From positions 1 through 64,000 of the forward strand of contig NZ_JAOPWB010000162.1 in the NCBI RefSeq assembly GCF_025965855.1: a DNA stretch of 64,000 nucleotides, read 5' to 3'. The translations under genes and the position numbers were made by a program. Position 1 is the first letter of the stretch, and each line of letters begins with the position of its first letter. Below, piece after piece: positions 21,281 to 45,115 of the stretch. This DNA is from Mycobacterium sp. Its GTDB lineage: Bacteria > Actinomycetota > Actinomycetes > Mycobacteriales > Mycobacteriaceae. Under the pieces are notes generated by a model, which was given only the letters and a program-made list of their open reading frames with translations, did not search any database and was not told the origin of the DNA.

Positions 21281-21841
21281 ATGGCTCAGGCCGCCATAAA
21301 ATCGCGCTCCGATGTAGTCGACTTCCTGGTCAGTCAGCACGAGCAGATCAAGTCGATGTTCGCCGAAACCCTGTCGGCCTCCGGGAAAGAACGAGAGAAA
21401 GCGTTCGTCGAACTCCGGCGCTTGCTCGCGGTGCACGAGACCGCCGAGGAGGAAGTCGTTCACCCGCGCGCCAAGCGGAAGATCGCCGACGGTGCCGCGG
21501 TGGTGGACAAGCGACTGGAGGAGGAGCACGAGGCCAAGACGGTCCTGCAGAAGCTGGAAAAGCTCGACGTCGACAGCGAGGAGTTCACCCGCCACCTGAC
21601 GGAGCTCCGCGACGCCGTTATCGAGCACGCCGAGCACGAGGAGAAGGACGAGTTCGCCAAGCTGGGCGAGGAATTGAGCGACGAGGAGCTGGCGAGGATG
21701 GGCCGCGCCGCCAAGCTCGCCGAAGCGATCGCCCCCACCCGGCCGCACCCGGGCGTCGAATCCCAGGCCGCCAACCTGACCGCGGGCCCGTTCGCGGCGA
21801 TGATGGACCGGGCGCGCGACGCCATCATGGGCAAGGGCTGA
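21281..21841 (+). CDS. hemerythrin HHE domain-containing protein
   Basis: VDFLVSQHEQIKSMFAE...RRLLAVHETAEEEVVHP...IEHAEHEEKDEFAKL. Confidence 0.88.
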   Translation: MAQAAIKSRSDVVDFLVSQHEQIKSMFAETLSASGKEREKAFVELRRLLAVHETAEEEVVHPRAKRKIADGAAVVDKRLEEEHEAKTVLQKLEKLDVDSEEFTRHLTELRDAVIEHAEHEEKDEFAKLGEELSDEELARMGRAAKLAEAIAPTRPHPGVESQAANLTAGPFAAMMDRARDAIMGKG

Positions 21842-24747: not shown

Positions 24748-26052
24748 TCAAAATCCGCACGGGGCACCGTTTCCCAGGTAGGCCAGCCCGGCGGCTTGCA
24801 CGGCGGCCGGGTCGAGTGTGTTCCTGGTATCCAGGACCAGCGCCAGTGGCGCGTCTCGCGCGATGGCATGCCAATCGAGGTTACGAAACTGCGGCCACTC
24901 GGTCAGCACCACGATCGCCTCCGCCGCCTTGGCGGCCCGATACGGGTCATCCACGGCGGTCACCCGGGCCCGTTGCAGAGCAGTGGGATCGAGGTTCGGC
25001 AGTTGCGGGTCATAACCCATCACCTGGGCGCCGTCCTCGGCAAGTTTCAGGCAGGCGGCCAGCGCGGGGGAATCCCGCGTGTCGCCGGTCGCGGCCTTGA
25101 ATGTCAACCCCAACGCGGTGATTCGGCAGCCGGTCAGCGGCCGACCGATCCGGTGCCGCAGTGCCGTGGCGATCCGTGGGGCCTGGGCGGTATTGGTGCG
25201 CCGCGCCGCCTCGACTTCGACGAACGAGACGCCGTGACGGCGAGCCGTGTGCAGCAGCGCCGCGGTGTCCTTCGGGAGGCAGGAACCGCCCCAACCCGGG
25301 CCGGGCCGCAGGAAATCCGGCCCGATCCGGCGATCGGCACCCATGCAACCGGTGACGTCGCCGATGTCGGCACCGACGCGCGCGCACAGGGTGGCCAGCG
25401 AATTCGCGTAGGAGAGTTTGACGGCCAGGAAAGCGTTGCTTGCGTACTTGGCCAGTTCGGCACTCTCCGGACTCATCCGCAGTACGAGTTCGGCGCCCAG
25501 CCCGTACGAGCGTTGCACCACCCCGGCCGCCGACTCGTCGTGGGTGCCGATGACCAGTCGGTCGGGGTGACGGAAATCGTGGACGGCTCGGCCCTCGCGC
25601 AGAAACTCGGGTGTGGAGACGACGCGAATCTCCTTGTCGCGCAGGCGATCGGCCATGGCGGAGGTGGTGCCGACGGGAACCGTCGACTTCAACGCCACGA
25701 TGGCGCCGCGCCGCACGACGTTGCCGAGCCGGTCGACCGCCGACCGCACCGCACCCAGGTCCGCCCGCCCGTTGTCGGCGCTGGGAGTGGGGACGCAAAC
25801 GAAGACGACGTCGCGATCGGCGAGCGCGCAGAAGTCGCCGCTGAAGGCCAGCACGCCACGGGCGAGCCCGTCGCGCAGCAGCTTTGGCAGCTCCGGCTCG
25901 TCGATTACCGGGATGCCGGCCGTCAGTTTTCGCACCCGTTCGGAGTCGATATCCACCGCCACCGTGTTCAGGCCCGCCGCGGCCACGCAGACGGCGGTGG
26001 TCAGACCGACGTAGCCGACGCCCACCACACCGACACGCGGCGCGTTATTCAT
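24748..26052 (-). CDS. UDP-glucose 6-dehydrogenase family protein
   Basis: VGVVGVGYVGLTTAVCVAAAGLNTVAVDIDSERV...GPGWGGSCLPKDT...ALGLTFKAATGDTRDSPAL. Confidence 0.9.
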   Translation of the reverse strand: MNNAPRVGVVGVGYVGLTTAVCVAAAGLNTVAVDIDSERVRKLTAGIPVIDEPELPKLLRDGLARGVLAFSGDFCALADRDVVFVCVPTPSADNGRADLGAVRSAVDRLGNVVRRGAIVALKSTVPVGTTSAMADRLRDKEIRVVSTPEFLREGRAVHDFRHPDRLVIGTHDESAAGVVQRSYGLGAELVLRMSPESAELAKYASNAFLAVKLSYANSLATLCARVGADIGDVTGCMGADRRIGPDFLRPGPGWGGSCLPKDTAALLHTARRHGVSFVEVEAARRTNTAQAPRIATALRHRIGRPLTGCRITALGLTFKAATGDTRDSPALAACLKLAEDGAQVMGYDPQLPNLDPTALQRARVTAVDDPYRAAKAAEAIVVLTEWPQFRNLDWHAIARDAPLALVLDTRNTLDPAAVQAAGLAYLGNGAPCGF

Positions 26053-27017
26053 GCCGTCTCCCTTAAGATTTCGCGGCTTGCCGCCAGCACCCTGTCAACC
26101 GTGATCACAAGAAGCCCTTCGTGCGGCACGTCGGCGTGCGGGTCACCGACACCGCCCGTCCACAGCGCGATAAGGGGGGCCGGACCGCGCGGCCCCCAAC
26201 GGCCGGGAGCGGTGGGACCGAACAGCACCACCGACGCCGTGCCGGTCGAGGCGGCCAGATGAGCCACCCCGGTGTCCCCGCAGATCACCAGCCGGCTGTC
26301 ACTGATCAGCGCGACCAACGCGGTCAGGTCCAGCAGGCCGGCCACCACCGCGGTCCGCGGCAAGCGGGCCGCACGGGCGACCTCGTGGGCGAGCCCGAAT
26401 TCCCCGGCCGATCCCGTGATGACGATTTCGTGGCCCTCATCGCGCAGCGCGGACGCCACCGCCGCGAACCGGTCTGCTGGCCATTGCCGCGCCGGCGCCG
26501 AGGCCCCGGGGTGGATCACGACCGCGCCAATTCGATCGGGATGTACCGTGGGTCGCGGCAGCCTCACGTTGTCCGCTTCACAAGGGATTCCGGCCCATTC
26601 CAGCAGGGCACACCAGCGATGCACTTCGTGCACGTCGGTGCGCCACGGTGGTCCGGCCAGGGCGGGATGGTGGCGATGGCAATGAGTGAGCACCGTGTGG
26701 GGCCGCCAGGCGAGCAAATGGTCGATGCTCTGCGGCCCGCACCCATGCAGATTGACCGCCAGCTCCGGCGGCTGCGGCAGCGGTTGCAGGTCGCCCAGGC
26801 GCGCGGTCGGCAGCACGTCGTCGACGGCTCCGGTGAGCAAGGCGAGTTCGCGGTAGCGGGAGGGGGCGGCGAGCATCACCCGCGCCTCGGGGTAATGCCG
26901 GCGCAGTCCCCGCAGGGCGGGCACCCCCGTCAGTAAGTCACCGAGCCCCAAGGCGCGCAGCACCACGATGGTTTCGCCTCCGTCGGTGCTGAGGTCGGCC
27001 TGCGGGCCTATGGCCAC
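26049..27017 (-). CDS. glycosyltransferase family 9 (heptosyltransferase-like)
   Basis: GTG start at 27017; VVLRALGLGDLLTGVPALRGLRRHYP...AVVIHPGASAPARQWPADRFAAVASAL...CGDTGVAHLAASTGTASVVLFGPTAPGRWGP. Confidence 0.87.
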   Translation of the reverse strand: MAIGPQADLSTDGGETIVVLRALGLGDLLTGVPALRGLRRHYPEARVMLAAPSRYRELALLTGAVDDVLPTARLGDLQPLPQPPELAVNLHGCGPQSIDHLLAWRPHTVLTHCHRHHPALAGPPWRTDVHEVHRWCALLEWAGIPCEADNVRLPRPTVHPDRIGAVVIHPGASAPARQWPADRFAAVASALRDEGHEIVITGSAGEFGLAHEVARAARLPRTAVVAGLLDLTALVALISDSRLVICGDTGVAHLAASTGTASVVLFGPTAPGRWGPRGPAPLIALWTGGVGDPHADVPHEGLLVITVDRVLAASREILRETA

Positions 27018-27712
27018 GACGACTCCGTGGCGGCACAGACCACCATTTCGCGCACCTCGCATCCGGCGGGCTGGGAGAGAGCGAAAAGCACGGCCTCGGC
27101 GACGTCCTCGGGCCGGTTGAGCTTGGCGTCCGCCGGTGGCTTGTACTGGTCGGGCCGGCCGTCGAAGAACGCGGTGTGCATGCCACCGGGAATGAGCAGC
27201 GTCACGCCGACCTCGCCCGCGAGTTCGGCCGCGAGCGCGCGGGTGAAGCCAACGACCCCGAATTTGGATGCGCAGTAGGCAGTGGCATCGCTGACCGCCT
27301 TGATGCCCAGCGTCGAGGCGCACGTGACAATGCGCCCACCGGTCGACCTCAGGTACGGCAGCGCGGCGCGAACGACGGCGGCGGTGCCGATCAGGTTGAC
27401 GGCGATGACCTGTTCCCATTCCTTGGCCGGCACTTGCTCGAGCGTGCCGCAGCAGTCGATGCCCGCCGCGGTGAAGACACCGGTGATGCGGCCGCCCACC
27501 CGTTCGGCCAGCGACTCGACGGCAGTGGCAACCGCGCTGGTGTCAGCCAGGTCGGCGGCCACGTACGGCACGTCCGAGGCTGCCGAGGCGGGCGGCTTCT
27601 TGTCGATCACCAGCGGCACGCCGCCGCGCCGGAGCACGGCGGCCACGGTGGCCGCGCCAAGGCCGGACGAGCCGCCGGTGATGAGCACGCCGTCAAGTGG
27701 TTGTGCCGTCAT
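27008..27712 (-). CDS. SDR family oxidoreductase
   Basis: VLITGGSSGLGAATVAAVLRRGG...AYCASKFGVVGFTRALAAEL. Confidence 0.88.
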   Translation of the reverse strand: MTAQPLDGVLITGGSSGLGAATVAAVLRRGGVPLVIDKKPPASAASDVPYVAADLADTSAVATAVESLAERVGGRITGVFTAAGIDCCGTLEQVPAKEWEQVIAVNLIGTAAVVRAALPYLRSTGGRIVTCASTLGIKAVSDATAYCASKFGVVGFTRALAAELAGEVGVTLLIPGGMHTAFFDGRPDQYKPPADAKLNRPEDVAEAVLFALSQPAGCEVREMVVCAATESSWP

Positions 27713-27713
27713 A

Positions 27714-29129
27714 TCAAGACCTTTCGGTGAGTGTGCGGGCGGAAGTCGCCGCGGCGATCAGGCGGGAAGAGGAGTAACCGGCCACCGTGGGCAGGATGAT
27801 CACCGTGCCGCCGTGGCGTTGCACGGTTTCGGTTTCGGGGAGCTCGCCGGCCTCGTAGTCCCCGCCCTTCACCCAGATGTTGGGCCGCAGGGTGTCCAGC
27901 AAGCGCTCGGGGGTGGGTCCGTCGAAGATCGCCACGGCGTCGACGCACGCGAGCGCGGCCAGGACCCGGGCGCGGTCGACGTCGCGCATCACCGGCCGTC
28001 CGGTGCCCTTGAGCGCCCGCACCGACTTGTCCGAATTGACCAGGACTATCAGGGCGTCGCCGAGTTCGCGGGCCTGTCGAAGCAGCCGAACGTGTCCGGT
28101 GTGCAAGAGGTCGAAGCAACCGCCGGCGGCCACCACCGATCGTCCGTCGCGCCGCAGCCGTTCGGCCAGGGCGATCGCGTCGACCGCAACGGTATCCTCG
28201 AATTGCGTTTCGGCGGAAAGGATGTCGGCGCCGTGGCGGGGGACCGGCGTCGAGACCGCGGCCGCGCCGCCCGCGGCCACGAACCGGGCTGCGTCGGCGA
28301 CCGCCGCTTCGACCGCGGCGACGGGGTCGGCACCGGCGCCCAGGGCCACGGCCGCGGCGACAGCAAACCGGTCTCCTGCCCCGCAGACATCGGCCGCGCC
28401 CGCCGCCGCGCCCGCCGGGATTCCCACGTGGTGGGCGCCCAGCCGCCGTCCGTGCACGCGTGCGCCACGGGCACCGCGGGTGACGCACACCGCGCCGGCA
28501 CCCCACTTCCGCAGCAGCACCTCAGCGGCGTCGCCCGCGACATCGCCGCAAAAGTGGCGCGCCTCTTCGTCGTTCGGGGTCACCAGGGCGCATCCGGGCA
28601 CCGGCGGCGCGCCGCGCGGATGTGGGTCCCAGACCACGGGGACGCGGGACGCCGCTTCCGTCAGCGCCTGGCGGACGGCGGGCAGCGCCGTCAAGCCCGC
28701 GCCGTAATCGGCGACACAAATCGCGCGGGCGCCGGCCAAGGTTTCCCCGACCTCAACCGGAAGCCGGTGGTTCACGGGGGCGCCGTCACCCCGGTCGAGC
28801 CGGAGCATCGACTGACCCCGCGCCCGTATCCTCGTCTTGGTCACGGTGGTCCCGGTCATCGGTAACGCAAGCACCGTGACTCCCGCGGCCGCGAGCAGGC
28901 CGCGCAGCCGTCGGCCCGCGTCGTCGTCGGCGATGCCGGTGATCAACGCCACGCCGGTCTCGGTTCGGGCCGCCAGCACGGCCGCCAGCCCGGCGCCCCC
29001 CGGCCGTTGTACGAGCCGTTCGGCGTCGACCACCGGCACCGGAGCCTCGGGGCTCAGCCGTGTCGCCGAGCCCAACACGTCGATGTCGAGGATCGAATCA
29101 CCAATGATGACAAGGGGTTTGGCGGTCAC
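27714..29129 (-). CDS. hldE: bifunctional D-glycero-beta-D-manno-heptose-7-phosphate kinase / heptose-1-phosphate adenylyltransferase
   Basis: PfkB-type kinase (GDSILDIDVLG, CGAGDRFAVA) fused to nucleotidyltransferase AAGGCFDLLHTGHVRLLRQARELGDALIVLVNSDKSVRALKGTGRPV...WVKGGDY. Confidence 0.88.
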   Translation of the reverse strand: MTAKPLVIIGDSILDIDVLGSATRLSPEAPVPVVDAERLVQRPGGAGLAAVLAARTETGVALITGIADDDAGRRLRGLLAAAGVTVLALPMTGTTVTKTRIRARGQSMLRLDRGDGAPVNHRLPVEVGETLAGARAICVADYGAGLTALPAVRQALTEAASRVPVVWDPHPRGAPPVPGCALVTPNDEEARHFCGDVAGDAAEVLLRKWGAGAVCVTRGARGARVHGRRLGAHHVGIPAGAAAGAADVCGAGDRFAVAAAVALGAGADPVAAVEAAVADAARFVAAGGAAAVSTPVPRHGADILSAETQFEDTVAVDAIALAERLRRDGRSVVAAGGCFDLLHTGHVRLLRQARELGDALIVLVNSDKSVRALKGTGRPVMRDVDRARVLAALACVDAVAIFDGPTPERLLDTLRPNIWVKGGDYEAGELPETETVQRHGGTVIILPTVAGYSSSRLIAAATSARTLTERS

Positions 29130-29695
29130 GCCGTTTCCTCTCGCAGCAGCACGTCGTCGAGCGCCAGGCACAATCCGTGGATCAGCATCAAGTGGATCTC
29201 CTGCACGGTGGCCGTGGTCGGGGCGTCCACGCAGATGGCCTCGTCGCACATGGCGGCCAGCACGTTGGGCTCCGGCCCGGTCAGCGCCCACGTCAGCATG
29301 CCGATGTCTTGGGCCGCTTTGGCCGCGGCCAGCACGTTGCGACTGGTGCCGCTGGTGGACAGAGCCACCAGCACGTCGCCGGGCCGCCCGTGCGCCCGGA
29401 CCCCGCGCGCGAACATCTCCTCCTCGCCGTAGTCGTTGACGATCGCGGTCAACGCCGACGTGTCGGCGTGTAAGGCGATGGCCGACAGCGGTATTCGCTC
29501 CTCGCGAAAGCGGCCGACGATTTCGGCGGTAAGATGCTGCGCCTCCGCCGCGCTGCCGCCGTTCCCGCACGCGAGCAGGCGGCCCCCGCTCGTCAGCACC
29601 CACGCGAGCTGTTGGCCCCAGCCACGCAGCCGGACCGCCTCGGAGCTGGTGCGGCCCACCGCGTCTCGCAGCGCATCGAAGTGCATCTCGATCAT
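29126..29695 (-). CDS. gmhA: D-sedoheptulose-7-phosphate isomerase
   Basis: GGRLLACGNGGSAAEAQHLTAEIVGRF...LSTSGTSRNVLAAAKAAQDIGM (SIS domain, GmhA-like). Confidence 0.88.
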   Translation of the reverse strand: MIEMHFDALRDAVGRTSSEAVRLRGWGQQLAWVLTSGGRLLACGNGGSAAEAQHLTAEIVGRFREERIPLSAIALHADTSALTAIVNDYGEEEMFARGVRAHGRPGDVLVALSTSGTSRNVLAAAKAAQDIGMLTWALTGPEPNVLAAMCDEAICVDAPTTATVQEIHLMLIHGLCLALDDVLLREETA

Positions 29696-30714
29696 GGCGT
29701 TCCTCCTTCATTGACCGCGGCGAGCAGTTCGGCGTCGGTGATGTGGTCCAGGCAGGGATGGCCCGGCACCGGGCAGATCCGGGCACGGCTGTCGCGACAC
29801 GGTGCAGATTGATTGCCCAGCACCGTCACCCGGCGCCCGAAGGGCCGCCACTGCGCGGCCGGCACCACCGGCGCGAACAATGACACCGCCGGCGTGCCGA
29901 CGGCGGCGGCCAGGTGCGCCGGCCCGGTGTTCGGAACCACGACCGCGTCCGCCGCCGCAAACACCGCCGCCAGTTCGGCTAGGCTGGTCCGGCCACCCAG
30001 GTCCACCGCGAGGTCGCCCGCGACGTCGGCGGTGAGCGCCGCCTCCTCGGGGCCGCCGGTGACCACGACCCGGTGGCCGGCCCCGACCAGCGCCGCCACC
30101 ATGGCGGCGCTGCGCGCCCGGCTCGGCCGCCGGGCCGGCACCGCGGCCCCGGGATGGAACACCACGAACGGGCCGGCGCCGATCCGGCTCGCCAACCTCG
30201 GACACAGCGGATCGACGGTACGGATCCGCAGCGCGCCGTCGTCACCGGCGGGCAGTTGGCAACCCGCCGCCTCGGCGAGCGATAGCGCCCGCCTCGGCTC
30301 CGGGATCCCCGTCGGCACGCGGTGCCGCAGATCGAGCAGGGTGCCGGGGTAGTCCGCGCAGATCGCACCCACCCAGGGCACCGACGCCATCCGGCACAAC
30401 AACGCCAACGGCAGCGGAGACTGGTGAAACGACGTGAAGATGTAGGCCTTGGTGGGCGCGATATCGCGCAGCTGCTTGATCACCGCATCGGCATGTGCGG
30501 CCGTCAATTCCGGTGCGTCGAAATCCACCCAGGGCGCCTGCCATTCGAGGATCTCGTCGACGCCCGGCAGCAGTTCGGCGGCATCGCGTCCGCGCGGTCC
30601 GGCCAGCATCACCACCCGGTCGTGGCAATTGGCCACCGCGCGCACCGCCGGGCCGGTGATCAGCACGTCGCCGGCGCTATCGAGGCGGGCCACGACGGCG
30701 GTATTCACCGGCAC
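29692..30714 (-). CDS. glycosyltransferase family 9 (heptosyltransferase-like)
   Basis: VVARLDSAGDVLITGPAVRAVA...VVFHPGAAVPARRPSRARSAAMVAALVGAGHRVVVTGGPEE...VPNTGPAHLAAAVGTPAVSLFAPVVPAAQWRPFG. Confidence 0.86.
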   Translation of the reverse strand: MPVNTAVVARLDSAGDVLITGPAVRAVANCHDRVVMLAGPRGRDAAELLPGVDEILEWQAPWVDFDAPELTAAHADAVIKQLRDIAPTKAYIFTSFHQSPLPLALLCRMASVPWVGAICADYPGTLLDLRHRVPTGIPEPRRALSLAEAAGCQLPAGDDGALRIRTVDPLCPRLASRIGAGPFVVFHPGAAVPARRPSRARSAAMVAALVGAGHRVVVTGGPEEAALTADVAGDLAVDLGGRTSLAELAAVFAAADAVVVPNTGPAHLAAAVGTPAVSLFAPVVPAAQWRPFGRRVTVLGNQSAPCRDSRARICPVPGHPCLDHITDAELLAAVNEGGTP

Positions 30715-32207
30715 TCCCTTAGCACTAAAGACACCGCGTCACTGAGGGTTTCGGCCACCCGCGCATGGGCGCGGGCGTGGTGGATTTCCGCGGGCAGGGT
30801 GCGCGTGGTCGGCACCAGCACGGCCTGTGCGTCGGCGGCCAGGGCCGCCTCCACATCGCCCCCGGTGTCGCCGATCAGCACGCACCGCGCCGGCGGCACC
30901 GCCAGCGCCTCGGCCGCCGCCAGCACCATCCCGGGCTGCGGCTTGCGGCACCCGCAGCCGTCCGCCTCGCCGTGCACGCACACCTGCCAGGAGTCGAACG
31001 GCCCGAGGACCTCATTGACCCGGGCGTTCACGGCGGTGAGCTGGTCCGCACTGATCAGCCCGCGCGCCACGCCGGACTGATTGGTCACGACCGCGAGCAG
31101 CAGGCCCCGCCGGCGCAGGCGGGCCAGGGCCCGGCCGGCATCGCGGGTGGGCCGCACACCCGCGGGGTCGTTGAGATACGGCCGGTCGACGATCAGGGTG
31201 TCGTCGCGGTCCAGCAGCACGGCCAGCGGCGGATCGCGCCGGGCCCGGCGAACCGCCCACTCGCCGGCCAGTCGGTGCGCCACCGCGACCGGCGGGATAA
31301 GGGCGCTGCTCACCGAAAGGCGAAGCGCCTCAACGGCGGAGCGCGGGCCGCTGCGCCAGCGCCTGGCCGCGAACTCGGCTGTGAGCGCCAGCCACAGCGC
31401 CGCGGCGGCGCGGGCCCCGATGCCACGGCGCGGCAGCCCGGAAGCGGTGGCCGCGATGGCTAGGGCGCCGGCCGCGGTGGTCGCGATGTGCGCCGGCATC
31501 CTGCCCGGCCCCTCGCCGATCTTGGCGCGCCAGGATCGGCCGTGCTTGCGACGCATCAGCGCGTTGTCGCGGTTACCGACCTGCGCGCGCACGCTCGACC
31601 ACCAGCCGGCGGGGGCGACGGGATGGCTGCAGCGACGGGCGCCGCGGGCAATCTGCCCGCCGGCCTCCACGATCCGCAGCGCCAGGTCCGAATCTTCGCG
31701 GTAGGCGCGCGGGAACCGCTCGTCGAAGCCCCCGACGGCCACCAGCACGTCGCGGCGATACGCCATGTCGGCGGTGATCCACCGCGCCTCGGACAGCCGC
31801 AGGGTCCGCCGCTCGTCGTCGGTGGGCCGGCGGGAGGCCTCCGTCGGCACCTCGATGACCGCCTGGGAGCCGCCGGCACCCGCCGCGTCGGAGGCGCGCA
31901 GATCGGTCGCCACGGCCCATCTCCACCACGCGTCCGGCAGCACATCGTCGTCGAGAAAGCACACCCAGCGCACGGTGGTGGCCCGCCATCCCACGTTGCG
32001 CGCCGCGGCCGGCCCCCGCCCGCCGCTGCGCAGCACCCGCACCGGAAGCCCGGCGGTGACCGGAAGGTCGGTAACCGGCTCGGGCCGGTCGTCGACCAGC
32101 ACCACCTCCGCCGGCGCAGGACCGGATCCCCGCTCCAGCGCGATGAGCAAGCGGCGCAGGGAGTCCCGGCCGATGGTGGGCACCACGATCGCGTAATCGG
32201 GTGTCAT
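30705..32207 (-). CDS. GT2 glycosyltransferase fused to GmhB-type HAD-IIIA phosphatase (heptose-1,7-bisphosphate phosphatase)
   Basis: ATG 32207; N-terminal YAIVVPTIGRDSLRRLLIALE...VCFLDDDVLPD; C-terminal VLLDRDDTLIVDRPYL...VVTNQSGVARGLI...CVHGEADGCGCRKPQPGM (GmhB zinc motif). Confidence 0.85.
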   Translation of the reverse strand: MTPDYAIVVPTIGRDSLRRLLIALERGSGPAPAEVVLVDDRPEPVTDLPVTAGLPVRVLRSGGRGPAAARNVGWRATTVRWVCFLDDDVLPDAWWRWAVATDLRASDAAGAGGSQAVIEVPTEASRRPTDDERRTLRLSEARWITADMAYRRDVLVAVGGFDERFPRAYREDSDLALRIVEAGGQIARGARRCSHPVAPAGWWSSVRAQVGNRDNALMRRKHGRSWRAKIGEGPGRMPAHIATTAAGALAIAATASGLPRRGIGARAAAALWLALTAEFAARRWRSGPRSAVEALRLSVSSALIPPVAVAHRLAGEWAVRRARRDPPLAVLLDRDDTLIVDRPYLNDPAGVRPTRDAGRALARLRRRGLLLAVVTNQSGVARGLISADQLTAVNARVNEVLGPFDSWQVCVHGEADGCGCRKPQPGMVLAAAEALAVPPARCVLIGDTGGDVEAALAADAQAVLVPTTRTLPAEIHHARAHARVAETLSDAVSLVLRECR

Positions 32208-33844
32208 CGCCGTCGCCGGAGCACATAGGGGCCGATGGCCAGCACGTCGATGGGGGAACTGCCGAAGACCTCGAGGGCATCGCGCGGGCTGTCCACCATC
32301 GGCCGCCCGGCGGTGTTGAAGCTCGTGTTGACGACCACCGGGACCCCGGTGCGCTGGGCGAAGCGGCTGATCGTCGCGTGCAGGCGCGGATCCGCGGCTT
32401 GGTCGACGGTCTGGATTCGTGCCGTGCCGTCGACATGGGTGACCGCGGGGATGCGGTCGCGCCAGTTCTCGGCGACGTCGTGCACGAACAGCATGTACGG
32501 GCTGGGCAGCGGTCCGCGAGAGAAGATTTCGGCGGCCCGCTCGGCCAGCACCATCGGGGCGACGGGCCGGAACTGCTCGCGGCCCTTGACCGCGTTGAGG
32601 CGCTCCAGGTTGGCGGGATGACGCGGGTCGGCCAGCAGCGAGCGGCCGCCGAGGGCCCGCGGCCCAAATTCGGCGCGGCCCTGGAACCATCCGACCAACC
32701 GGTTGTCGGCCAGCGCGTCGCCGATCGCGGCGGCCGGGTCGGGTGGCCGTTCGTAGCCGACGGCCGCGTCGTCGAGCGCCGCCCGGATCTGGTCGTCGGA
32801 CCAGCCGCGGCCCAGTTGCGCCGCCGGCATCGGGGCGATCGGCTCGCCGAACGCGGCGGCCAGGCTGAGCGCCGCTCCCAGCGCCGTGCCCGAGTCACCG
32901 GCGGCCGGCTGAACCCACACCCGGTCGAAGCCGGACTCGGCGTAGATGCGCGTGTTGGCAACGCAATTCAGCGCCACGCCTCCCGCCAGGCACAGCGCGT
33001 CGCCGTCGGTGCGGTCGCGCAGCCACCCCACCAGCTCCAGCAGCACGTCTTCGACGACGCGCTGCACGCTGCAGGCGAGGTCGGCGTGCACGGGATCGAG
33101 CGTGCCTTCGTTCGGCCGGCGTGCGGGCGCCAAATCGTCCCATACGATCGGCTCGGTGCGGAACCCGCCGTCACCGCACGCGTAGACCCGCTCCCGCAGC
33201 GCCCCGGCGAACCGCGGGCTGCCGTAGGAGGCCATGGCCATCACCTTGTACTCGTCGCTGGAGCGGACGAAACCCAGATGCTCGGTGAGGCTTTCGTAAA
33301 GCAATCCCAGCGAGTGCGGCAGCGCCTGGGAGGCCAGCACGTCGAGCTTCTGGTCACGGTAGACACCGGCGAGCATCGACGTGCGTTCGCCGCGGCCGTC
33401 GACCACCAGCACCGCCGTGTCGGGATGCGGTGAGGCGAGCGCCGTGGACGCCGCGTGCGCGACATGGTGGCGGACGTGGCACACCGCGGCGGGGTTGAGG
33501 CCGGGCACGGCCGACGCCAGGAAGCGCGGGGCGCGCTCCGCGTACATGGTGCGCAGGTGCTCCCAGTCCCGGTCGAGCCCGGCCGGGTCGAGGGGTTCCT
33601 CCTGCATCAGGGCCGGGTCGTAGGAGTATCCGACCGCGTCGATGTCGCCCGCGTCCAGCCCGGAGTGATCCAGGCACCACCGGATGGCGCCGACGGGAAG
33701 TTCCCACGTGGAGAACGGGACCGCCTGCTTACCGTGCTTGCGCCGTGAGAAGCGCTCTTCCTCAGCGGCCGCTACCACCTCGCCGTCGACCACCAGGGCC
33801 GCGGCCGAGTCGTGGAACACCGCGTTAACGCCGAGAATCCGCAC
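32204..33844 (-). CDS. carbamoyltransferase (NodU/CmcH/TobZ family)
   Basis: GTG 33844; ILGVNAVFHDSAAALVVDGEVVAAAEEERFSRRKH...CLAGGVALNCVANTRI...GRAEFGPRALGGRSLLADPR. Confidence 0.92.
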   Translation of the reverse strand: MRILGVNAVFHDSAAALVVDGEVVAAAEEERFSRRKHGKQAVPFSTWELPVGAIRWCLDHSGLDAGDIDAVGYSYDPALMQEEPLDPAGLDRDWEHLRTMYAERAPRFLASAVPGLNPAAVCHVRHHVAHAASTALASPHPDTAVLVVDGRGERTSMLAGVYRDQKLDVLASQALPHSLGLLYESLTEHLGFVRSSDEYKVMAMASYGSPRFAGALRERVYACGDGGFRTEPIVWDDLAPARRPNEGTLDPVHADLACSVQRVVEDVLLELVGWLRDRTDGDALCLAGGVALNCVANTRIYAESGFDRVWVQPAAGDSGTALGAALSLAAAFGEPIAPMPAAQLGRGWSDDQIRAALDDAAVGYERPPDPAAAIGDALADNRLVGWFQGRAEFGPRALGGRSLLADPRHPANLERLNAVKGREQFRPVAPMVLAERAAEIFSRGPLPSPYMLFVHDVAENWRDRIPAVTHVDGTARIQTVDQAADPRLHATISRFAQRTGVPVVVNTSFNTAGRPMVDSPRDALEVFGSSPIDVLAIGPYVLRRRR

Positions 33845-33852
33845 CGCACCTC

Positions 33853-34842
33853 CTACTGCGCCAATTGCCCAGGGGTCGAGACGAAGTCCGCGTGCGCTTC
33901 GTCGGCCAATATGCGAAACCACGCCACGGTGGTACTCAGCCCGCTGCGGTAGTCGACCCGCGGCTCCCAGCCCAACTCCCGGCGGGCCAGCGTGATGTCG
34001 GGGCATCGGCGCTGCGGGTCGTCTACGGCCGGTGGGATGAGCTGGATCGTGGAGTTGCTGCCGGCCAGGTCGCGGATCATCTCGGCAACGGCACGCACCG
34101 TCAGCTCGGTGGGGTTGCCGATGTTGACCGGGCCGCTGAAATCGCGGTGCGTCAGCGCAATGAGCGCCGTGACGGTGTCATCGACATAGCACAGTGAGCG
34201 CGTCTGCAGGCCCGTGCCGGACACGGTCAGCGGTTCTCCGCGCAGTGCCTGGCGGCAGAACGTCGGAACCATCCGGCCGTCGTCGGGGCGCATACCCGGC
34301 CCGTAGGTGTTGAAGATGCGGGCCACGCCGACGTCGGCCCGGCCGAGGCGGTGGTAGGCGAAGGTCAGCGCTTCGGCGTAGCGTTTGGCTTCGTCGTACA
34401 TGCTGCGCGGGCCCACGGGATTCACGTTGCCCCAATAGGTTTCGCGCTGGGGATGCGATTCGGGATCGCCGTAGACCTCGCTGGTGGACGCCAGAACGAA
34501 GCGAGCGCCGGCGCGCTCGGCAATTTCCAGCGCCGTCGCCGTGCCCGCCGATCCGGCGCGCAGCGTGTCGATCGGTAACCGTTGATAGTCGGCCGGCGAC
34601 GCCGGCGACGCCAGGTGGAACACCGTGTCGAACGAGGAGCCGAGGATCTGCACCGCGTCGGCATCGCAAATGTTCCGCTGCACAAAGTGATATCCGGGCC
34701 GCCCGGCCAGTCCGGCCGCCGCGCCAGGTGGGCTGGTGGACAGGTCGTCGACGCTGACGACTTCGACACCGGCGCCGAGCAGCCGGTCGCACAAGTGGAC
34801 GCCCAGGAATCCGGCGCCGCCGGTTACCAGTACACGCGACAT
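33853..34842 (-). CDS. NAD-dependent epimerase/dehydratase, UDP-glucuronate decarboxylase (UDP-xylose synthase)-like
   Basis: VLVTGGAGFLGVHLCDRLL...ASTSEVYGDPESHPQRETYWGNVNPVGPRSMYDEAKRYAEAL. Confidence 0.85.
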   Translation of the reverse strand: MSRVLVTGGAGFLGVHLCDRLLGAGVEVVSVDDLSTSPPGAAAGLAGRPGYHFVQRNICDADAVQILGSSFDTVFHLASPASPADYQRLPIDTLRAGSAGTATALEIAERAGARFVLASTSEVYGDPESHPQRETYWGNVNPVGPRSMYDEAKRYAEALTFAYHRLGRADVGVARIFNTYGPGMRPDDGRMVPTFCRQALRGEPLTVSGTGLQTRSLCYVDDTVTALIALTHRDFSGPVNIGNPTELTVRAVAEMIRDLAGSNSTIQLIPPAVDDPQRRCPDITLARRELGWEPRVDYRSGLSTTVAWFRILADEAHADFVSTPGQLAQ

Positions 34843-34860: not shown

Positions 34861-34885
34861 ATACCCGGCGGTGCAGTGCTGAAAC
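34861..34885 (-). promoter_or_regulatory. SigF-type promoter GTTT-N15-GGGTAT for the 34842 to 24748 heptose/carbamoyl operon
   Basis: Exact match on minus strand, 18 nt upstream of ATG 34842. Confidence 0.7.
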
Positions 34886-34888
34886 GGT

Positions 34889-34913
34889 GTTTCGCCGACC
34901 GATTCCCGGGTAG
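34889..34913 (+). promoter_or_regulatory. SigF-type promoter GTTT-N15-GGGTAG for the divergent GT2 gene
   Basis: Exact match on plus strand, 11 nt upstream of ATG 34925. Confidence 0.68.
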
Positions 34914-34924
34914 TCGCACCGGGC

Positions 34925-35815
34925 ATGGCCGCCTCGCCCGAAGCCCCGCCCCAAACGTCTTTTGTCATCGCGACACGAGACCGCTCCTCCGAGCTGCGCG
35001 CCGTGCTGCACCGCCTGCTTGACATCGGCGAGTGCCCGATCGTCGTGGTGGACAACGCATCCCGGGACGACTCGGTGGCGGCCGCCCGTGGCGTCGCCGC
35101 CGGTTGCGGCGGCCGGGTGACCGTCATCCCGCTGAACAAGAACGAGGGCGCGGTGGCGCGCAACATCGGCGTGGCACGTTGCGGCACACCGTATGTCGCG
35201 TTTTGCGACGACGATTCATGGTGGGCGCCGGGGGTGCCCGCACTCGCCGAGGCGATATTCGACCGGTATCCTACCGTCGCGCTGCTGGCCGCGAGAACCG
35301 TCGTTTGGCCACAGCAGCGCGATGACCCGCTGGTCGCCGAATTGGCCGCTAGCCCGCTGGGCCGTGATCCGGCCCTGCCGGGCCCGTCGATCCTGGGCTT
35401 CCAGTCGTGCTCGGCGGTGGTACGCAAGGCGGCGTTCGAGGCGGTCGGCGGGTTCAGTCCGATCCTGCACTTTCGAGCCGAGGAGGGTTTGCTCGCTTGG
35501 GATCTCGCCGCGAACGGCTGGGATCTGTGCTTCTGCCCGGGTTTGGTGGCATACCACCAGCCCTCGACGACTCGATCGGCGAGCCAGGTCCAACGCGCTC
35601 GCGTCAGGCGCAACGAACTGCTGACCGCGTGTCTGCGCCGGCCCGTCGGGAGGTGCGCCAGGGCCGCGGCCGGCCTGGCGTGGGCCGCCAGCCATGACAC
35701 CGCCCACGCCAGGGCACTGCTCGAGGCCGTGGCCGCAATGCCGGCCGTCCTGGGCGCCCGGCGGCGACTGCCCGACTCGGTGGAGCGGTCGGTGCGACTG
35801 CTGGAGAAGCGCTGA
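34925..35815 (+). CDS. glycosyltransferase family 2
   Basis: TSFVIATRDRSSELRAVLHRLL...VVVDNASRDDSV...VAFCDDDSWWAPG. Confidence 0.88.
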   Translation: MAASPEAPPQTSFVIATRDRSSELRAVLHRLLDIGECPIVVVDNASRDDSVAAARGVAAGCGGRVTVIPLNKNEGAVARNIGVARCGTPYVAFCDDDSWWAPGVPALAEAIFDRYPTVALLAARTVVWPQQRDDPLVAELAASPLGRDPALPGPSILGFQSCSAVVRKAAFEAVGGFSPILHFRAEEGLLAWDLAANGWDLCFCPGLVAYHQPSTTRSASQVQRARVRRNELLTACLRRPVGRCARAAAGLAWAASHDTAHARALLEAVAAMPAVLGARRRLPDSVERSVRLLEKR

Positions 35816-35824
35816 GCCACAATG

Positions 35825-37045
35825 TCATCCGGAACGGGTGTTCGGTGCGCTCAGCCCGCGCCGTACGGCCGCCACCTTCTCGTAGACGCGTTCGGTGTCG
35901 GCCGCGATCCGGTCCCACGTGTAGCGCGCCCTCGCGCGCTCCCGTCCCGCCTGACCCAACGCCCTGCGCCGCCGGCCATCTTCCAGGAGCGGGTTGATCG
36001 CTTCGGCCAGCGCGCCGGGATCCTTCGGTGGCACCAGGCGTCCCGTCACGCCGTCGACGACGGTGTCGCGGATCCCGCCGACCGCCGCGGCCACGACCGG
36101 AACTCCGCAGGCCATCGCCTCGAGTGGCACGATGCCGAACGGCTCATACCAGGGGGTGCAGGCCACCACGTCGGCCGACCGCAGCACCGCGGGCATCTCG
36201 TCGCGTGTGATCCCGCCGAGCAGCAGCACCCGGTCGGCCACAGCGAGGCGGTGGGCCAACCGCCGCAAATGTTGCGCTTCCGGGTCCTGCGCCAGCGAAT
36301 CGCGGGCGGGGCCACCGACGATGACCAGCTCGGCGTCGGGGATGCCCGGCAAGGCGCGGATCAGCGTCTCAAAACCCTTGCGCGGCACCAGACGTCCGAC
36401 GGACACGATCCGAGGACGAGCGCCCCGCGGCGCGGCCGCTCCGTCCGGGTGGAACGCATCGATATCGACGCCGCAGGGCACCACCGACGTTCGCGACCGG
36501 GCGCGGCCCATTCGGACCAGCTCGAACACCTCGTCGGTGCTGGTGGCCGCCACCCAGTCGGCGCCGCGCGCGACGACGGTCTCGAGCCCGATGCGGCAGT
36601 CCGGGCTGGTGTCATCGACACCCTGGTGCAGCCTCTTGACCAGTCCCAGCGCATGGAATGTCTGCACGGTGGGTACGCGGTGCGGTCGTGCGGCCCGCTG
36701 GGTCGCGAGGCCCGACATCCAAAAGTGGGCATGAGCCACGTCGGGCGGTTCGCTTGTCCACCGCCCGTCGAGGTAATGGCCGAAGGCGTACATGTATTGC
36801 AGCAGCGCGTCTTTGGGCAAGACGCGGGCCGGGCCCGCGGACACGTGGACCACGGAGTAGCCATCCGCGGTCTCGGCACGGTCGGGCAGGTCGGGGTCGT
36901 CGCGGCGGGTGTACACGACCACGTCGTGGCCGCGCCGCGCCAGCGTGGCGGACAGCTCGGCGACATGGACGTTCTGCCCGCCCGCGTCCACGCCGCCCAA
37001 GTGCGCCAGCGGGCTGGCGTGCTCGGAGATCATCGCGATCCTCAT
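35825..37045 (-). CDS. glycosyltransferase family 4
   Basis: ATG 37045; [38 protein letters not shown]...[11 protein letters not shown]...[25 protein letters not shown]. Confidence 0.9.
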
Positions 37046-37062
37046 GCGGGCTCCCTTCTGGG

Positions 37063-38031
37063 TCAACTGCACAGCTCCTCGATGACTTGGTCCCATTCGG
37101 TGAGAAAGCGCCCCAATCCGAAGCGGCCGGTGACGAATTCGCGTGCCGCCTTGCCCGCGGCCACCGCGGTCGCGTGGTCGTTCAAGAAGTCCCGCAAGCC
37201 ATGGCCCAGGGCCGCGAGGTCGGCGCTGACGACGCCCGCCTCGCAAGGCACCACCAGCGGGGCCATCGTCGTGCCGACGGCCACCACCGGCATCCCGAGG
37301 AACATCGCCTCGATGAGCGAAAGGCCCAGCGAGGTCCAGCGGGCGGCATGCAGGTAGACGCGCCGCCGGGCGATCTCATCCCACAACTTCGGGGCCGCGA
37401 CATCGCCGCGGCCGGTCACCCCGCCGCTTCGCGCGTACAGCGACTCCGTACCGATGCCCCACACATCGATCTGCGCGTGGGCCGACAACGGTTCCAACAG
37501 GTCGGCACCGACGGTGCGGCCGCGGCGCAGCGGCTCGTTGATCATCGTCGCCGCTCTCAGGACGTCGCCGGTGTAGCGCCTGCCCGGATCGGCCACGCCG
37601 TGGTCGATCACCCGAGTCGGGGCCCGTCCGTTGTCCCACATCAGCCGGTTGAAGTCGGTGACGTGGACCAGCGGGATGTCGCTGCGGTCCGCGAGCGGAT
37701 GCCGGCTGCGTTCGGCGTGCGGGCGCGGAGCGTTGTGCTCGACGTAGACAGCGGGCAGGTCGTTGCCCGCTGTGCGGCCCGCCCACCGGGCCATCAGCGC
37801 GGCATCGTGCGGGCGTTGCAACACCACGAGATCGATGTCCTGGCCTCCCAGCTCCTGGAGGGCGATCTCCCGGGCGTTCGGCCATGTCCGCCCGGCCAAC
37901 CCGATGCCATCGGCGCCGCGATCGGGGGCGACCGGGATCAAATACCTGTGCCGGCCCGCGACGAACGCCTGCGTCCAGGATCCATGGACGTGCCAAACCA
38001 GCACATTCTTTGCGGAGCCTAAACGGAGCAT
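37063..38031 (-). CDS. glycosyltransferase (GT4-like)
   Basis: [25 protein letters not shown]...[32 protein letters not shown]. Confidence 0.82.
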
Positions 38032-38041
38032 GGCGGGCGAA

Positions 38042-38066
38042 ATACCCTATAGGTCATTACGTAAAC
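38042..38066 (-). promoter_or_regulatory. SigF-type promoter GTTT-N15-GGGTAT for the GT4 pair
   Basis: Exact match on minus strand; -10 ends 11 nt before ATG 38031 (near-leaderless). Confidence 0.7.
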
Positions 38067-41624: not shown

Positions 41625-41912
41625 ATGAGCTTGCGCGACGGAATGTCGAGCATTATTGCGTTTTTGCGCGCCGGTTACCCGAGCGGCGTGCCGCGCTTCG
41701 GCTACGCGCCGGCGTTGGCGCTGTTGCCACGGCGAATATGCGACGACGAGGTCGCCACTATCGCGACCACTCTCACCGGGCGCAAACGCCCGTCGATCGA
41801 CAATGCCGACGTCGGCGTGGCGATCACCCGCGTCACTGACGAGATGCCCTCGCTTGACGACATCGATCGCGTCCAGCATCGACTCGATGCGATGGGATGG
41901 GCCGGTGACTAA
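41625..41912 (+). CDS. DUF3349-like hypothetical protein
   Basis: SSIIAFLRAGYPSGVPRFGYAPALALLPRRICDDEVATIATTL. Confidence 0.75.
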   Translation: MSLRDGMSSIIAFLRAGYPSGVPRFGYAPALALLPRRICDDEVATIATTLTGRKRPSIDNADVGVAITRVTDEMPSLDDIDRVQHRLDAMGWAGD

Positions 41913-42694
41913 GGACGTCCGCCCGGCGCTGACACGCATTCCAGGTCGACCACCAGCGGCCGGTGATCGGAGATCGGCATCGCGTCGGACTCCACGGCAC
42001 CGCCGCGCAGGCGAGGGTCGTCGGTCAGGATGTGGTCGAGCTGCCGCTGGGGCGCGTCCGCGGGAAACGTCGGCGCCACGGCCAGTGGCCGCATGCGCGA
42101 CCAGCGGCGAACCGCGTCCGGTGTCATGTTGAGGTCGCCGATCAGCAGCCGCGGACCCGGGAAGCCGCGCAAGTCATGGATCAGTCGCCGCAGCTGGCGC
42201 CGATTCCAGCCGGGCACGAAGGACAGATGCGTGTTGGCCACCGTGAGCCCGCCCCACGGGGCGTGCAGCTGCGCGATCACGGCCGCCCGCGGTTCCTCGT
42301 CGACGATCATCACCCGGTTGGGTCCCGGCAGATACATGGGAAACCGCATCGGAATCCGCGGCAACCGCACCACCTGCCAGCTGTCCACCGGAACCCGGGA
42401 CAGCAGCGCGATCCCGTAGGCCGCCGTGCCGGGTTGCTCGCGGCCGGTGGCGGCCATCCAGGTCGCACCGGGGGTGCCGGAGATCGCGGCCACGAACCGG
42501 TGCTCCACCGCGCCCATCGCGTCGGCCGCCACCGCGGTGAGATCGGCGAGGGATGACCGAGGTTGGTCGCAGTCGACCTCCTGCAATCCGAGGACGTCGG
42601 GATTCAGGCGGCGCACGCAGTCTGCGAGCCGCTCAGGGTGCACCCCGTCCCCGACGGTGCGGCCATGCAAGATGTTGAAGGTCGCTACGCGCAT
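41909..42694 (-). CDS. endonuclease/exonuclease/phosphatase family protein
   Basis: MRVATFNILHGRTVGDGVHPERLADCVRRLNPDVLGLQEVD...LIGDLNMTPDA...ISDHRPLVVDLE. Confidence 0.92.
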   Translation of the reverse strand: MRVATFNILHGRTVGDGVHPERLADCVRRLNPDVLGLQEVDCDQPRSSLADLTAVAADAMGAVEHRFVAAISGTPGATWMAATGREQPGTAAYGIALLSRVPVDSWQVVRLPRIPMRFPMYLPGPNRVMIVDEEPRAAVIAQLHAPWGGLTVANTHLSFVPGWNRRQLRRLIHDLRGFPGPRLLIGDLNMTPDAVRRWSRMRPLAVAPTFPADAPQRQLDHILTDDPRLRGGAVESDAMPISDHRPLVVDLECVSAPGGRP

Positions 42695-42747
42695 AACTTT
42701 TCGATACCCGCTCTGGGGCGTGTGCTCACCTTGGCCGGCCTTCCGCG

Positions 42748-43374
42748 CTAGCGGGCGCCGGGCACGTGTTCGCGCGCCGCCACCGACCGGCCGTCACCCG
42801 TGTCGAACACCTCGACGACGAAATCGCGGTCCCCGTATCGGGCTACGGACGTCAGCCCGGGCGTTTCCGCGATCACGGCTTGCGCCGCGTCACCGGTGAG
42901 CGGATAGTCGGCCACGACATGGCGCCAGTGCGCGGCAACAACTTTCGCACCCCGCTGCAGCCGGGGGCATTCGCGGCCCAACACCGCGGCCAGCGCATCG
43001 GCCTCCAGGTAGTAGGCGACCTCGCTGAGCATCAGAAGGTCGAAGGGACCGGGCGGCCATGTGACGTCCAGGGACGACTGATACAGCGTCACCCTGTCCC
43101 GGCAGCCGGCCCGCCGCAGCCGCGCATCCGCGCTTCGCAGCGCCGCATCGGCCACGTCCATCGCGGTCACGTGATCGCAGCGGCGTGCCAGCCGCGCGGT
43201 CAGGGCCCCAATCGAACAGCCCGGCTCAAAAGCGTGTCGATACCGGCGGTCGGGTAGCAGGGCCATGGTAATGGCGTACTTGCGCTGCTCGTACCAGCGC
43301 GTCGACAGCTGCCACGGATCGTCGGCTCCGTCGTACATCCGGTCGAAGTAGGCATCGGGCAGCCGTGTGGTCAC
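42748..43374 (-). CDS. NodS-like SAM-dependent methyltransferase
   Basis: GTG 43374; DAYFDRMYDGADDPWQLSTRWYEQRKYAITMALLPDRRYRHAFEPGCSIGALTARLA. Confidence 0.88.
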   Translation of the reverse strand: MTTRLPDAYFDRMYDGADDPWQLSTRWYEQRKYAITMALLPDRRYRHAFEPGCSIGALTARLARRCDHVTAMDVADAALRSADARLRRAGCRDRVTLYQSSLDVTWPPGPFDLLMLSEVAYYLEADALAAVLGRECPRLQRGAKVVAAHWRHVVADYPLTGDAAQAVIAETPGLTSVARYGDRDFVVEVFDTGDGRSVAAREHVPGAR

Positions 43375-44174
43375 CGGAACACCACTTCTCCCACCGCGAG
43401 CTGCCGCTGCAGCACGAACGGCGGCAACACGGGCGGGGTGCCCGCGGCGCCCGGCTCGAGCTGGCTGCGAAAACAATGCGCGGCAAGGCGTTTGCGATCA
43501 AGCGCCCAGCAAGGCACGCGCACACGGCGGGCCCGGTCCCACGGCACCGCGGGGTCGGCCGGGCTGGCCCACTGCCACATCCAAATCGGATATTCCAGCA
43601 GCGCGGCGCCCGTGCGCCCGCACGCTTCGGCGGCCGCACGGCCCACGGCTTCGTGATCGGGATGCCCGTCGCCCCGCCAGGTGGCGGCACACCAGGTTCC
43701 GGGCGCGGCCTCCTCGAAGACCCCGGTGAGCAGTTCGGCGAGCGTGTCCTCGTGGTCGGCCAGCTCACCATCGGGCAGACCCAGCGACACCGGCGGAGAA
43801 ACCCCCAAAACTCCTGTTGCTCTGCGTAGTTCGTACTTACGTATGATCTCCACACGCGTCCGCTCCCGCGGCGTCGCGCCGGGCCGGGCGGCCCCGCCGT
43901 CGCTGACCGAGATCAGCTGCACGTTGACGCCCGAGGCGACCAATTGTGCGATCGTCGCGCCGAGGCCGAGCGTCTCGTCGTCGGGGTGGGGCGCGACGAC
44001 GACCAGCCCGGGGCAAGTGCTCAGGTCCAGTGGCGGCGGCGGTTCGGAGTCGAGGGCGGCCAGCCACACCGGCACCGGAGTGCCGCCGCGGGTCAGCGGC
44101 TTGGCGGCGAATTTTGCGCAATTGCTTGCGGGAAGGGTCTTCACAGCCCGCGGCAGGCCCTCGAGTGTGGTCAT
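43371..44174 (-). CDS. PIG-L family deacetylase
   Basis: VVVAPHPDDETLGLGATIAQLVASGVNVQLISVSDGGAARPG...GDGHPDHEAVGRAAAEA. Confidence 0.9.
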   Translation of the reverse strand: MTTLEGLPRAVKTLPASNCAKFAAKPLTRGGTPVPVWLAALDSEPPPPLDLSTCPGLVVVAPHPDDETLGLGATIAQLVASGVNVQLISVSDGGAARPGATPRERTRVEIIRKYELRRATGVLGVSPPVSLGLPDGELADHEDTLAELLTGVFEEAAPGTWCAATWRGDGHPDHEAVGRAAAEACGRTGAALLEYPIWMWQWASPADPAVPWDRARRVRVPCWALDRKRLAAHCFRSQLEPGAAGTPPVLPPFVLQRQLAVGEVVFR

Positions 44175-45115
44175 GGCCGCCGCCCGGCGAGTCGCCCGAG
44201 CTCGGCCAGATCGCGCTCGGCGTGGCTTTGTCGTATGTAGATGGTCAGGTCGGCCACTCGCTGAGCATGCCGGCCGTCCTGACACAGCGGGCCCGGCCCG
44301 AGGGCGCGGCCGGTCCGGGTGATGGCCTCATCGACCGAGTGTTCCACCACCGTGCGCGCGCGCCGAGCGAGCAGTTGAGCGGTGTCGGAGCGGTCGAACG
44401 GATCCACGTCTATCTGGGCTGCCGCCGCGGCCAGGATCGCGTCGCCTGCGGCAAGCGCGGCGTCCACGGCACCCAGATGCGCCAGCGAATACGCGTCGGC
44501 CGATTTGCTTGTGGTGCAGCGGTACAACGGCTCGGCGACCCTCCGCGCACCGCCGAGCCAGCAAGCGGCCACGCCGATCGCGCCGTGCCAGAACCCCGGC
44601 CGATTCAGGTAGTCATCGGGATCCCCGACGGCGACGGCGTGGGCGTTGGTGAATTGCACCGCCCGGGTGTCGCTGCCGGCCATCCCGACGTTCCACCACG
44701 TGGTCGGCAACGCTTTGACGGCAGGTTCGCTGACCGGCACGGCGAACAGGCCGCGTCTTCCGTCGTCGAGTCGGGCGGTCACCAGCGCGTGGGTACAGAA
44801 CCCCGCGCCCGAGCACCACACCTTGGTGCCATTGAGAATGATCGCGCCGCCGCTGACTTTGCTGGCAATCACCGCGGCGTCGGACGACTCGGCCGCCCAA
44901 ACGCCCCACAGCTGATCGGAATCGGGCGGCTTACCGCCCAGCTCGTGCAGTATCGCGACGGCGTCAACGTGGGCCTCGGCGATCCGGGCCGCCACGATGT
45001 CGTCCTCGGCCAGCCGGGCCAGGCGTTGCCAGCGTTCGGCGGTGCGTCCCGAGGCGGGCAGTGGCAACTCGAGTCGTCCCGACTCCAGCCAGTGCTGCAC
45101 CAACCCCGCCGTCAC
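44171..45115 (-). CDS. acyl-CoA dehydrogenase family protein
   Basis: GGAIILNGTKVWCSGAGFCTHALVTARLDDGRRGLFAVPVSEP; overlaps neighbours by 4 nt on both sides. Confidence 0.82.
   Translation of the reverse strand: MTAGLVQHWLESGRLELPLPASGRTAERWQRLARLAEDDIVAARIAEAHVDAVAILHELGGKPPDSDQLWGVWAAESSDAAVIASKVSGGAIILNGTKVWCSGAGFCTHALVTARLDDGRRGLFAVPVSEPAVKALPTTWWNVGMAGSDTRAVQFTNAHAVAVGDPDDYLNRPGFWHGAIGVAACWLGGARRVAEPLYRCTTSKSADAYSLAHLGAVDAALAAGDAILAAAAAQIDVDPFDRSDTAQLLARRARTVVEHSVDEAITRTGRALGPGPLCQDGRHAQRVADLTIYIRQSHAERDLAELGRLAGRRP

Follow-up and report, generated by a model that had tools for sequence, protein, structure and literature searches.

The DNA analysed here is a 64,000-nucleotide stretch (hereafter the window) from Mycobacterium sp., contig NZ_JAOPWB010000162.1, positions 1 to 64,000. 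It carries a conserved cluster of twelve genes for nucleotide-sugar synthesis, glycosyl transfer and carbamoylation, which sequence comparison identifies as the mycobacterial orthologue of the cwg operon of Streptomyces coelicolor and which appears to be controlled by the general-stress sigma factor SigF.

Gene content and organization

By using codon-usage gene calling together with Pfam and NCBIfam profiles, nine minus-strand genes were found to lie head to tail between 24748 and 34842, with neighbouring genes overlapping by 4 or 10 bp or separated by gaps of at most 8 bp. Their 5' to 3' order is UXS, carbamoyltransferase, GT2-GmhB fusion, GT9a, GmhA, HldE, SDR (short-chain dehydrogenase/reductase), GT9b and UGD. 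The initial annotation had counted ten genes in this interval, but its own list also comes to nine; each family that it named was found by Pfam and NCBIfam at the position given. Upstream, at 34925-38031, three further glycosyltransferase genes (GT2x, GT4a and GT4b) accompany the nine-gene unit in most mycobacterial relatives and complete the twelve-gene cluster. The predicted products and their cwg counterparts are as follows.

33853-34842, minus strand: UXS-type UDP-glucuronate decarboxylase (UDP-xylose synthase), from solved relatives; counterpart of cwgA
32204-33844, minus strand: O-carbamoyltransferase, NodU/TobZ/NovN family (Pfam Carbam_trans_N and Carbam_trans_C); counterpart of cwgB
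30705-32207, minus strand: GT2 glycosyltransferase fused to a GmhB-type D,D-heptose-1,7-bisphosphate 7-phosphatase (PRK08942/GmhB matches); counterpart of cwgC and cwgD
29692-30708, minus strand: GT9a, heptosyltransferase-like (PF01075, 78 bits; nearest solved relatives WaaF and WaaC); counterpart of cwgE
29126-29695, minus strand: GmhA, sedoheptulose-7-phosphate isomerase (TIGR00441, solved relatives); counterpart of cwgH
27714-29129, minus strand: HldE, PfkB-type heptose-7-phosphate kinase and heptose-1-phosphate nucleotidyltransferase (NF008454, TIGR02199); counterpart of cwgI
27008-27712, minus strand: classical SDR (PF00106; YxxxK and a C-terminal SWP conserved)
26049-27017, minus strand: GT9b, heptosyltransferase-like (PF01075, 93 bits; WaaF, E 3e-26); counterpart of cwgJ
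24748-26052, minus strand: UGD, UDP-glucose 6-dehydrogenase (TIGR03026, 388 bits; nearest equivalogs TuaD and AglM)
34925-35815, plus strand: GT2x, divergent GT2 glycosyltransferase (PF00535; position conserved in mycobacterial loci); counterpart of cwgK/cwgL
35825-37072, minus strand: GT4a (PF00534; 60% identity to the Streptomyces gene); counterpart of cwgG
37063-38031, minus strand: GT4b (weak PF00534 match; 52% identity to the Streptomyces gene); counterpart of cwgF

Orthology to the cwg operon

The cwg ("cell wall glycan") operon of S. coelicolor, SCO6179-SCO6190 (Hong et al. 2002; PMC6767563, PMC5839063), is induced by vancomycin and depends on σE, and its cell-wall glycan is a prediction (PMC6767563); SCO6186 is described as a phosphoheptose isomerase and SCO6187 as a bifunctional synthase/transferase (PMC5839063). 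The published cwg promoter, CGCAACCTGGTCCCCGTTTTCGTCGTCTT (PMC6767563), 29 bases long, was found without mismatch in one 8.6 Mb genome, presumably of the genus Streptomyces, among 394 genomes. The distance from it to the following UXS gene is 147 bp, in agreement with the published spacing, which fits this genome being S. coelicolor or a very close relative. The operon that follows reads UXS, carbamoyltransferase, GT2, GmhB, GT9a, GT4b, GT4a, GmhA, HldE, GT9b and two GT2x genes, and a divergent, secreted-looking polysaccharide deacetylase adjoins it.

All twelve genes after the exact promoter have counterparts in the window at 45-65% identity, and ten of the twelve window genes match this locus, the exceptions being SDR and UGD. 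The first half of the gene order (UXS, carbamoyltransferase, GT2, GmhB, GT9a) is identical in the two. The GT4 pair keeps its Streptomyces position in Actinomadura and Nocardiopsis and has been relocated, like GT2x, in mycobacteria. Given the exact promoter, its 147 bp spacing and the shared genes, the window holds a cwg orthologue.

Predicted enzymes for ADP-heptose synthesis and transfer

The catalytic residues of GmhA are a Glu and a His, and both are invariant in the cluster family. The protein matches TIGR00441 with E 3e-49, at 166.8 bits against a cut-off of 209.45 and hence under it, and solved phosphoheptose isomerases with E 1e-58. HldE reaches 288 bits with NF008454, under the cut-off of 521, and retains the PfkB GAGD motif as well as the HxGH and KGGDY motifs of the nucleotidyltransferase. 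The GmhB domain, whose solved relatives are GmhB proteins, has invariant HAD aspartates and an invariant C-x-H...C-x-C zinc-loop motif. Thus, the complete ADP-D,D-heptose set that was first proposed (GmhA, both HldE activities and GmhB) is present with its catalytic motifs kept. The absence of hldD and the resulting D,D-heptose reading also held up genome-wide, in that no HldD exceeded the family cut-off (best 84.9 bits against 274.6). The genome has just one further GmhA-like gene, and since it sits in a hydrogenase-maturation locus, a second heptose route by way of it was rejected. With the GmhA, GmhB and HldE motifs kept and no HldD over its cut-off, the donor of the cluster is likely to be ADP-D-glycero-β-D-manno-heptose. 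Several genomes carry a second, more distant HldE within a few kb of the cwg-type one (e.g., G302:C15:138330-145052).

Both GT9 proteins best match ADP-heptosyltransferases, in support of the initial annotation. GT9b conserves the LGD and DTGxxH motifs and agrees with both the GT9 profile and the donor motif. GT9a passes the Pfam cut-off and departs from the expected pattern at the donor site, where it reads NTGxxH in place of the DxGxxH of GT9. Among the remaining glycosyltransferases, GT2x is 45-46% identical to the two genes that end the Streptomyces operon.

These scores also bear on a different assignment, in which the HldE, GmhA and GmhB paralogues would make some other nucleotide sugar (another heptose or nucleotide, or, as has been suggested for BlmC, a hexose) for use by the GT9 enzymes. 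With 144 bits, the kinase domain of HldE falls short of its cut-off of 345, and the transferase domain is just under its own (TIGR02199, 177.1 against 181.5); this, together with the deviating donor-site residues of GT9a, would suit such a product. However, three successive activities of the ADP-heptose route occur in one operon across the class, their catalytic motifs are intact, and the best solved relatives of HldE, GmhB and GmhA come from that route, making another nucleotide sugar quite improbable. An ADP-heptose pathway-like function is proposed here, rather than strict equivalog membership of HldE and GmhA.

UDP-sugar enzymes, carbamoyltransferase and SDR

The original UXS call was borne out. 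The best solved relatives are UDP-glucuronate decarboxylases of the UXS1 type (E 1e-93), far above the next family (E 1e-35), so that a 4,6-dehydratase was rejected, and the protein is 58% identical to the product of the first gene after the published cwg promoter. The carbamoyltransferase, 65% identical to its counterpart in the Streptomyces locus, matches the profiles of TobZ, GdmN and the novobiocin carbamoyltransferase, its closest relatives being antibiotic O-carbamoyltransferases. In the Pseudomonas lipopolysaccharide (LPS) core, the carbamoyltransferase WapO is assigned to a heptose (PMC8005017), and by analogy a heptose is a plausible carbamoyl acceptor for the mycobacterial cluster.

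The SDR gene is kept beside HldE in most relatives outside Streptomyces. It was sought in a 680 bp gap of the Streptomyces cwg operon and was not found there. The suggestion that this SDR might act on the heptose stays conjectural, given its absence from a Streptomyces cwg locus.

Distribution and evolution

A synteny search across actinobacteria, as the initial annotation had recommended, showed that the gene order recurs across Actinomycetes and that the locus is a widespread counterpart of cwg. Dozens of genomes share this order, with identities mostly of 45-93%, far beyond chance. In a first sample, all twelve genes were arranged identically in nine other genomes of the genus, and nearly so in several other genera of the family. 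A search of named genomes with a GT2-GmhB alignment confirmed at least 512 relatives. The best 80 of these were all actinobacterial, most with the cluster around them, and included Mycobacterium persicum, Mycolicibacterium senegalense, M. chubuense, Nocardia, Amycolatopsis, Saccharopolyspora, Prauserella, Glycomyces, Nocardiopsis and Actinomadura. The cluster-type HldE occurs in 94 of 395 genomes sampled from the class Actinomycetes, and GT9b in 47 of 199 Mycobacterium species, approximately a quarter.

A tree of the carbamoyltransferase, built without Gram-negative relatives, broadly agrees with taxonomy and places all mycobacteria in a single clade (support 100/99). It bears on the idea of an LPS-type island recently acquired from a Gram-negative donor, which might be suspected from the usual occurrence of ADP-heptose genes in Gram-negative bacteria. 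That idea is largely refuted, as the tree tracks actinobacterial taxonomy, the gene order is actinobacterial and SigF-type promoters are built in; we regard a recent transfer of this kind as extremely improbable. Old descent with repeated loss fits these sequence data best.

Several incomplete or rearranged copies were also observed. A second, decayed copy in the same genome (locus L151, contig C221, 9538-16041) keeps GT4b, GT4a, GT2x, UXS, GT9b and UGD, lacks GT2-GmhB, GmhA, HldE and SDR, and has a carbamoyltransferase stub of 55 residues and a GT9a cut to 73 residues; it resembles the fast-grower type and may be assembly contamination (4.95%). In another mycobacterium (G167, locus L166, 7980-12621), just UGD, GT9b, SDR and a broken GT4b are left, indicating that the cluster is being lost in some lineages. 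In four Amycolatopsis loci (L110, L111, L116 and L123), GT2-GmhB and GT9a stand apart from the rest, near a 36% identical carbamoyltransferase.

SigF-type promoters and proximity of sigF

The SigF consensus of M. smegmatis is GTTT-N(14-19)-GGGTA (PMC4694148). When the upstream regions of the clusters were read side by side, GTTT...GGGTA elements recurred, and sites in mycobacterial loci were scored as GTTT-N14-18-GGGTA. The window contains nine such sites where 0.45 would be expected, a number that no shuffle out of 100 attained. Three of the nine, near start codons, are placed to serve the cluster and were assigned by motif match:

34862-34885, minus strand: SigF-type promoter (GTTT-N15-GGGTA) of the UXS-to-UGD operon
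34889-34912, plus strand: SigF-type promoter of GT2x
38043-38066, minus strand: SigF-type promoter of GT4b-GT4a

Across the locus set, in which some species are represented twice, a site lies upstream of GT2x in 45 of 45 mycobacterial loci (approximately 38 distinct site sequences), of GT4b in 30 of 35, and of UXS in 16 of 48, with 19 of 49 for UXS in other genera; these counts are descriptive, since the motif was noticed on the sequences on which it was then counted. By comparison, 79 permuted motifs gave means of 1.4 (GT2x), 0.9 (GT4b) and 0.13 (UXS) loci, and those overlapping the true motif scored higher, up to 40 for GTTT/GGTAG, because a conserved G follows GGGTA.

Support from outside these counts comes from the published consensus and from the proximity of sigF. 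Of 34 mycobacterial loci, 19 have a sigF gene at least 75% identical to an NCBIfam-named SigF (reference 487 bits against a cut-off of 372) no more than 2 kb from the cluster, nearly always together with rsbW; in three more, a more divergent sigma-factor paralogue occurs within 5.5 kb. In the present genome, sigF is absent from the window, and two SigB/F/G-family genes over the cut-off lie elsewhere. Taken together, the mycobacterial cluster appears from its promoter sequences to be under SigF.

The six further sites in the window, at 14008, 15294, 21198, 39441, 41074 and 53790, precede a dehydrogenase gene, glgX, the gene at 21281, a topoisomerase IB gene, the gene at 41048 and a GT4 gene, respectively. 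Judged by motif, the window is likely to be rich in SigF targets.

Proposed pathway and product

From the gene content, the cwg orthology, the intact motifs, the promoter sequences with their conservation and the frequent proximity of sigF, we infer a donor, a glycan with its acceptor and carbamoyl site, a dependence on SigF and an envelope location. In the proposed pathway, UGD and UXS would convert UDP-glucose to UDP-glucuronate and then to UDP-xylose; the GT9 pair would add heptose, with other residues coming from the GT2 and GT4 enzymes; and the carbamoyltransferase would modify the oligosaccharide, possibly at a heptose in the manner of WapO in Pseudomonas LPS. SigF would direct transcription, which would place synthesis of the glycan in stress or stationary phase, with the envelope as its most likely destination. 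As a whole, the locus is probably a mycobacterial cwg-form operon, transcribed by SigF, for a heptose glycan of the envelope.

Several points weigh against this explanation. GmhA and HldE both score under their NCBIfam equivalog cut-offs, which leaves their preferences for nucleotide and sugar tentative. In GT9a, an invariant Asn replaces the Asp of the matched heptosyltransferases and the RWP motif is missing, and thus its donor may differ. The promoter counts carry the circularity described above, and the cell-wall label of cwg is itself just a prediction. Moreover, the locus does not by itself establish an envelope role, because clear transmembrane segments are missing from all twelve cluster proteins and neither a polymerase nor a flippase is conserved nearby. 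The envelope glycan or glycolipid of the initial annotation is accordingly not shown by the locus, as the cluster encodes no flippase, polymerase, initiating transferase or membrane protein. No conserved flippase or polymerase was found among the recurrent unassigned neighbours that were annotated, which comprise sigF-rsbW, an Nramp-type transporter, an aldehyde dehydrogenase, epimerase/SDR proteins, a FUSC/ArAE-type exporter domain and a polysaccharide pyruvyltransferase-like family.

A soluble or secreted small molecule is thus to be weighed, namely a carbamoylated heptose-containing oligosaccharide or glycoside serving as a stress solute or as a natural product resembling those made with the septacidin, hygromycin B or bleomycin sugar genes. 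Such a product would agree with twelve soluble-looking proteins and no conserved transporter, polymerase or lipid-carrier transferase, with the natural products made by the reviewed Gram-positive users of ADP-heptose (PMC10221265), with the combination of sugar synthase, carbamoyltransferase and sugar transferase among the bleomycin sugar genes (PMC7017467), and with the glycine betaine transport genes of the M. smegmatis SigF regulon (PMC4694148). On the other hand, no nonribosomal peptide synthetase, polyketide synthase or aglycone gene was seen accompanying the cluster, and six glycosyltransferases suggest a larger oligosaccharide. The vancomycin and σE induction of cwg and the adjoining Streptomyces polysaccharide deacetylase favour the envelope; that induction and the divergent deacetylase lend a little support to a cell-wall role carried over by analogy from the Streptomyces prediction. 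A small-molecule product is therefore considered unlikely, and an envelope glycan is preferred.

It is conceivable, if still doubtful, that a carbamoylated surface glycan containing D,D-heptose, of a hitherto undescribed structure and controlled by SigF, is made by approximately a quarter of Mycobacterium species and by many other actinobacteria, from an ADP-heptose pool that the host sensor ALPK1 might read.

Elsewhere in the window, a separate minus-strand block at 41909-45837 contains GT2, acyl-CoA dehydrogenase-like, PIG-L deacetylase and NodS-like methyltransferase genes and a gene of the endo/exonuclease-phosphatase family.

Novelty and comparison with known systems

The synthesis and attachment of ADP-heptose are usually regarded as a Gram-negative trait. 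In a 2023 review, Gram-positive ADP-heptose is named for two Streptomyces natural products alone (PMC10221265), and no description of a mycobacterial cwg or ADP-heptose locus was found in the literature searched. The biochemical reading of the initial annotation is good, and the novelty is narrower than was thought: what is new is that an operon family already known, though unsolved, is present in a further group of hosts, and that it has a likely regulatory link to SigF. The cwg product has been just predicted since 2002; its reading as an ADP-heptose operon with mycobacterial orthologues, and as a likely SigF target in mycobacteria, points to candidate sugars (D,D-heptose, xylose and carbamoyl) and to growth conditions. 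If true, use in the envelope throughout Actinomycetes would extend the occurrence known for a sugar nucleotide sensed by host cells.

The closest known system is the Streptomyces cwg operon, which shares UXS, carbamoyltransferase, GT2, GmhB, two GT9, two GT4, GmhA, HldE and GT2x with the mycobacterial cluster. Unlike cwg, the mycobacterial cluster has GT2 and GmhB fused, adds UGD and SDR, and places the GT4 pair upstream and GT2x divergently; in place of the σE control of S. coelicolor, it has SigF-type promoters and often lies beside sigF. The LPS core route of Gram-negative bacteria (GmhA, HldE, GmhB, HldD, WaaC/WaaF) has the same first enzymes and the same GT9 family, whereas the mycobacterial cluster is without HldD and LPS and has GmhB fused to GT2. 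WapO of the Pseudomonas LPS core (PMC8005017), likened by description and not by sequence, is likewise a carbamoyltransferase in a heptose-containing glycan. The septacidin and hygromycin B pathways of Streptomyces also use ADP-heptose in Gram-positive bacteria, but these are natural-product pathways, and no cwg-like use is described in the review (PMC10221265). Finally, the bleomycin disaccharide genes blmC-G, also likened by description, bring together a sugar synthase, a carbamoyltransferase and a sugar transferase, with the difference that their donors are assigned as GDP-mannose and GDP-gulose (PMC7017467).

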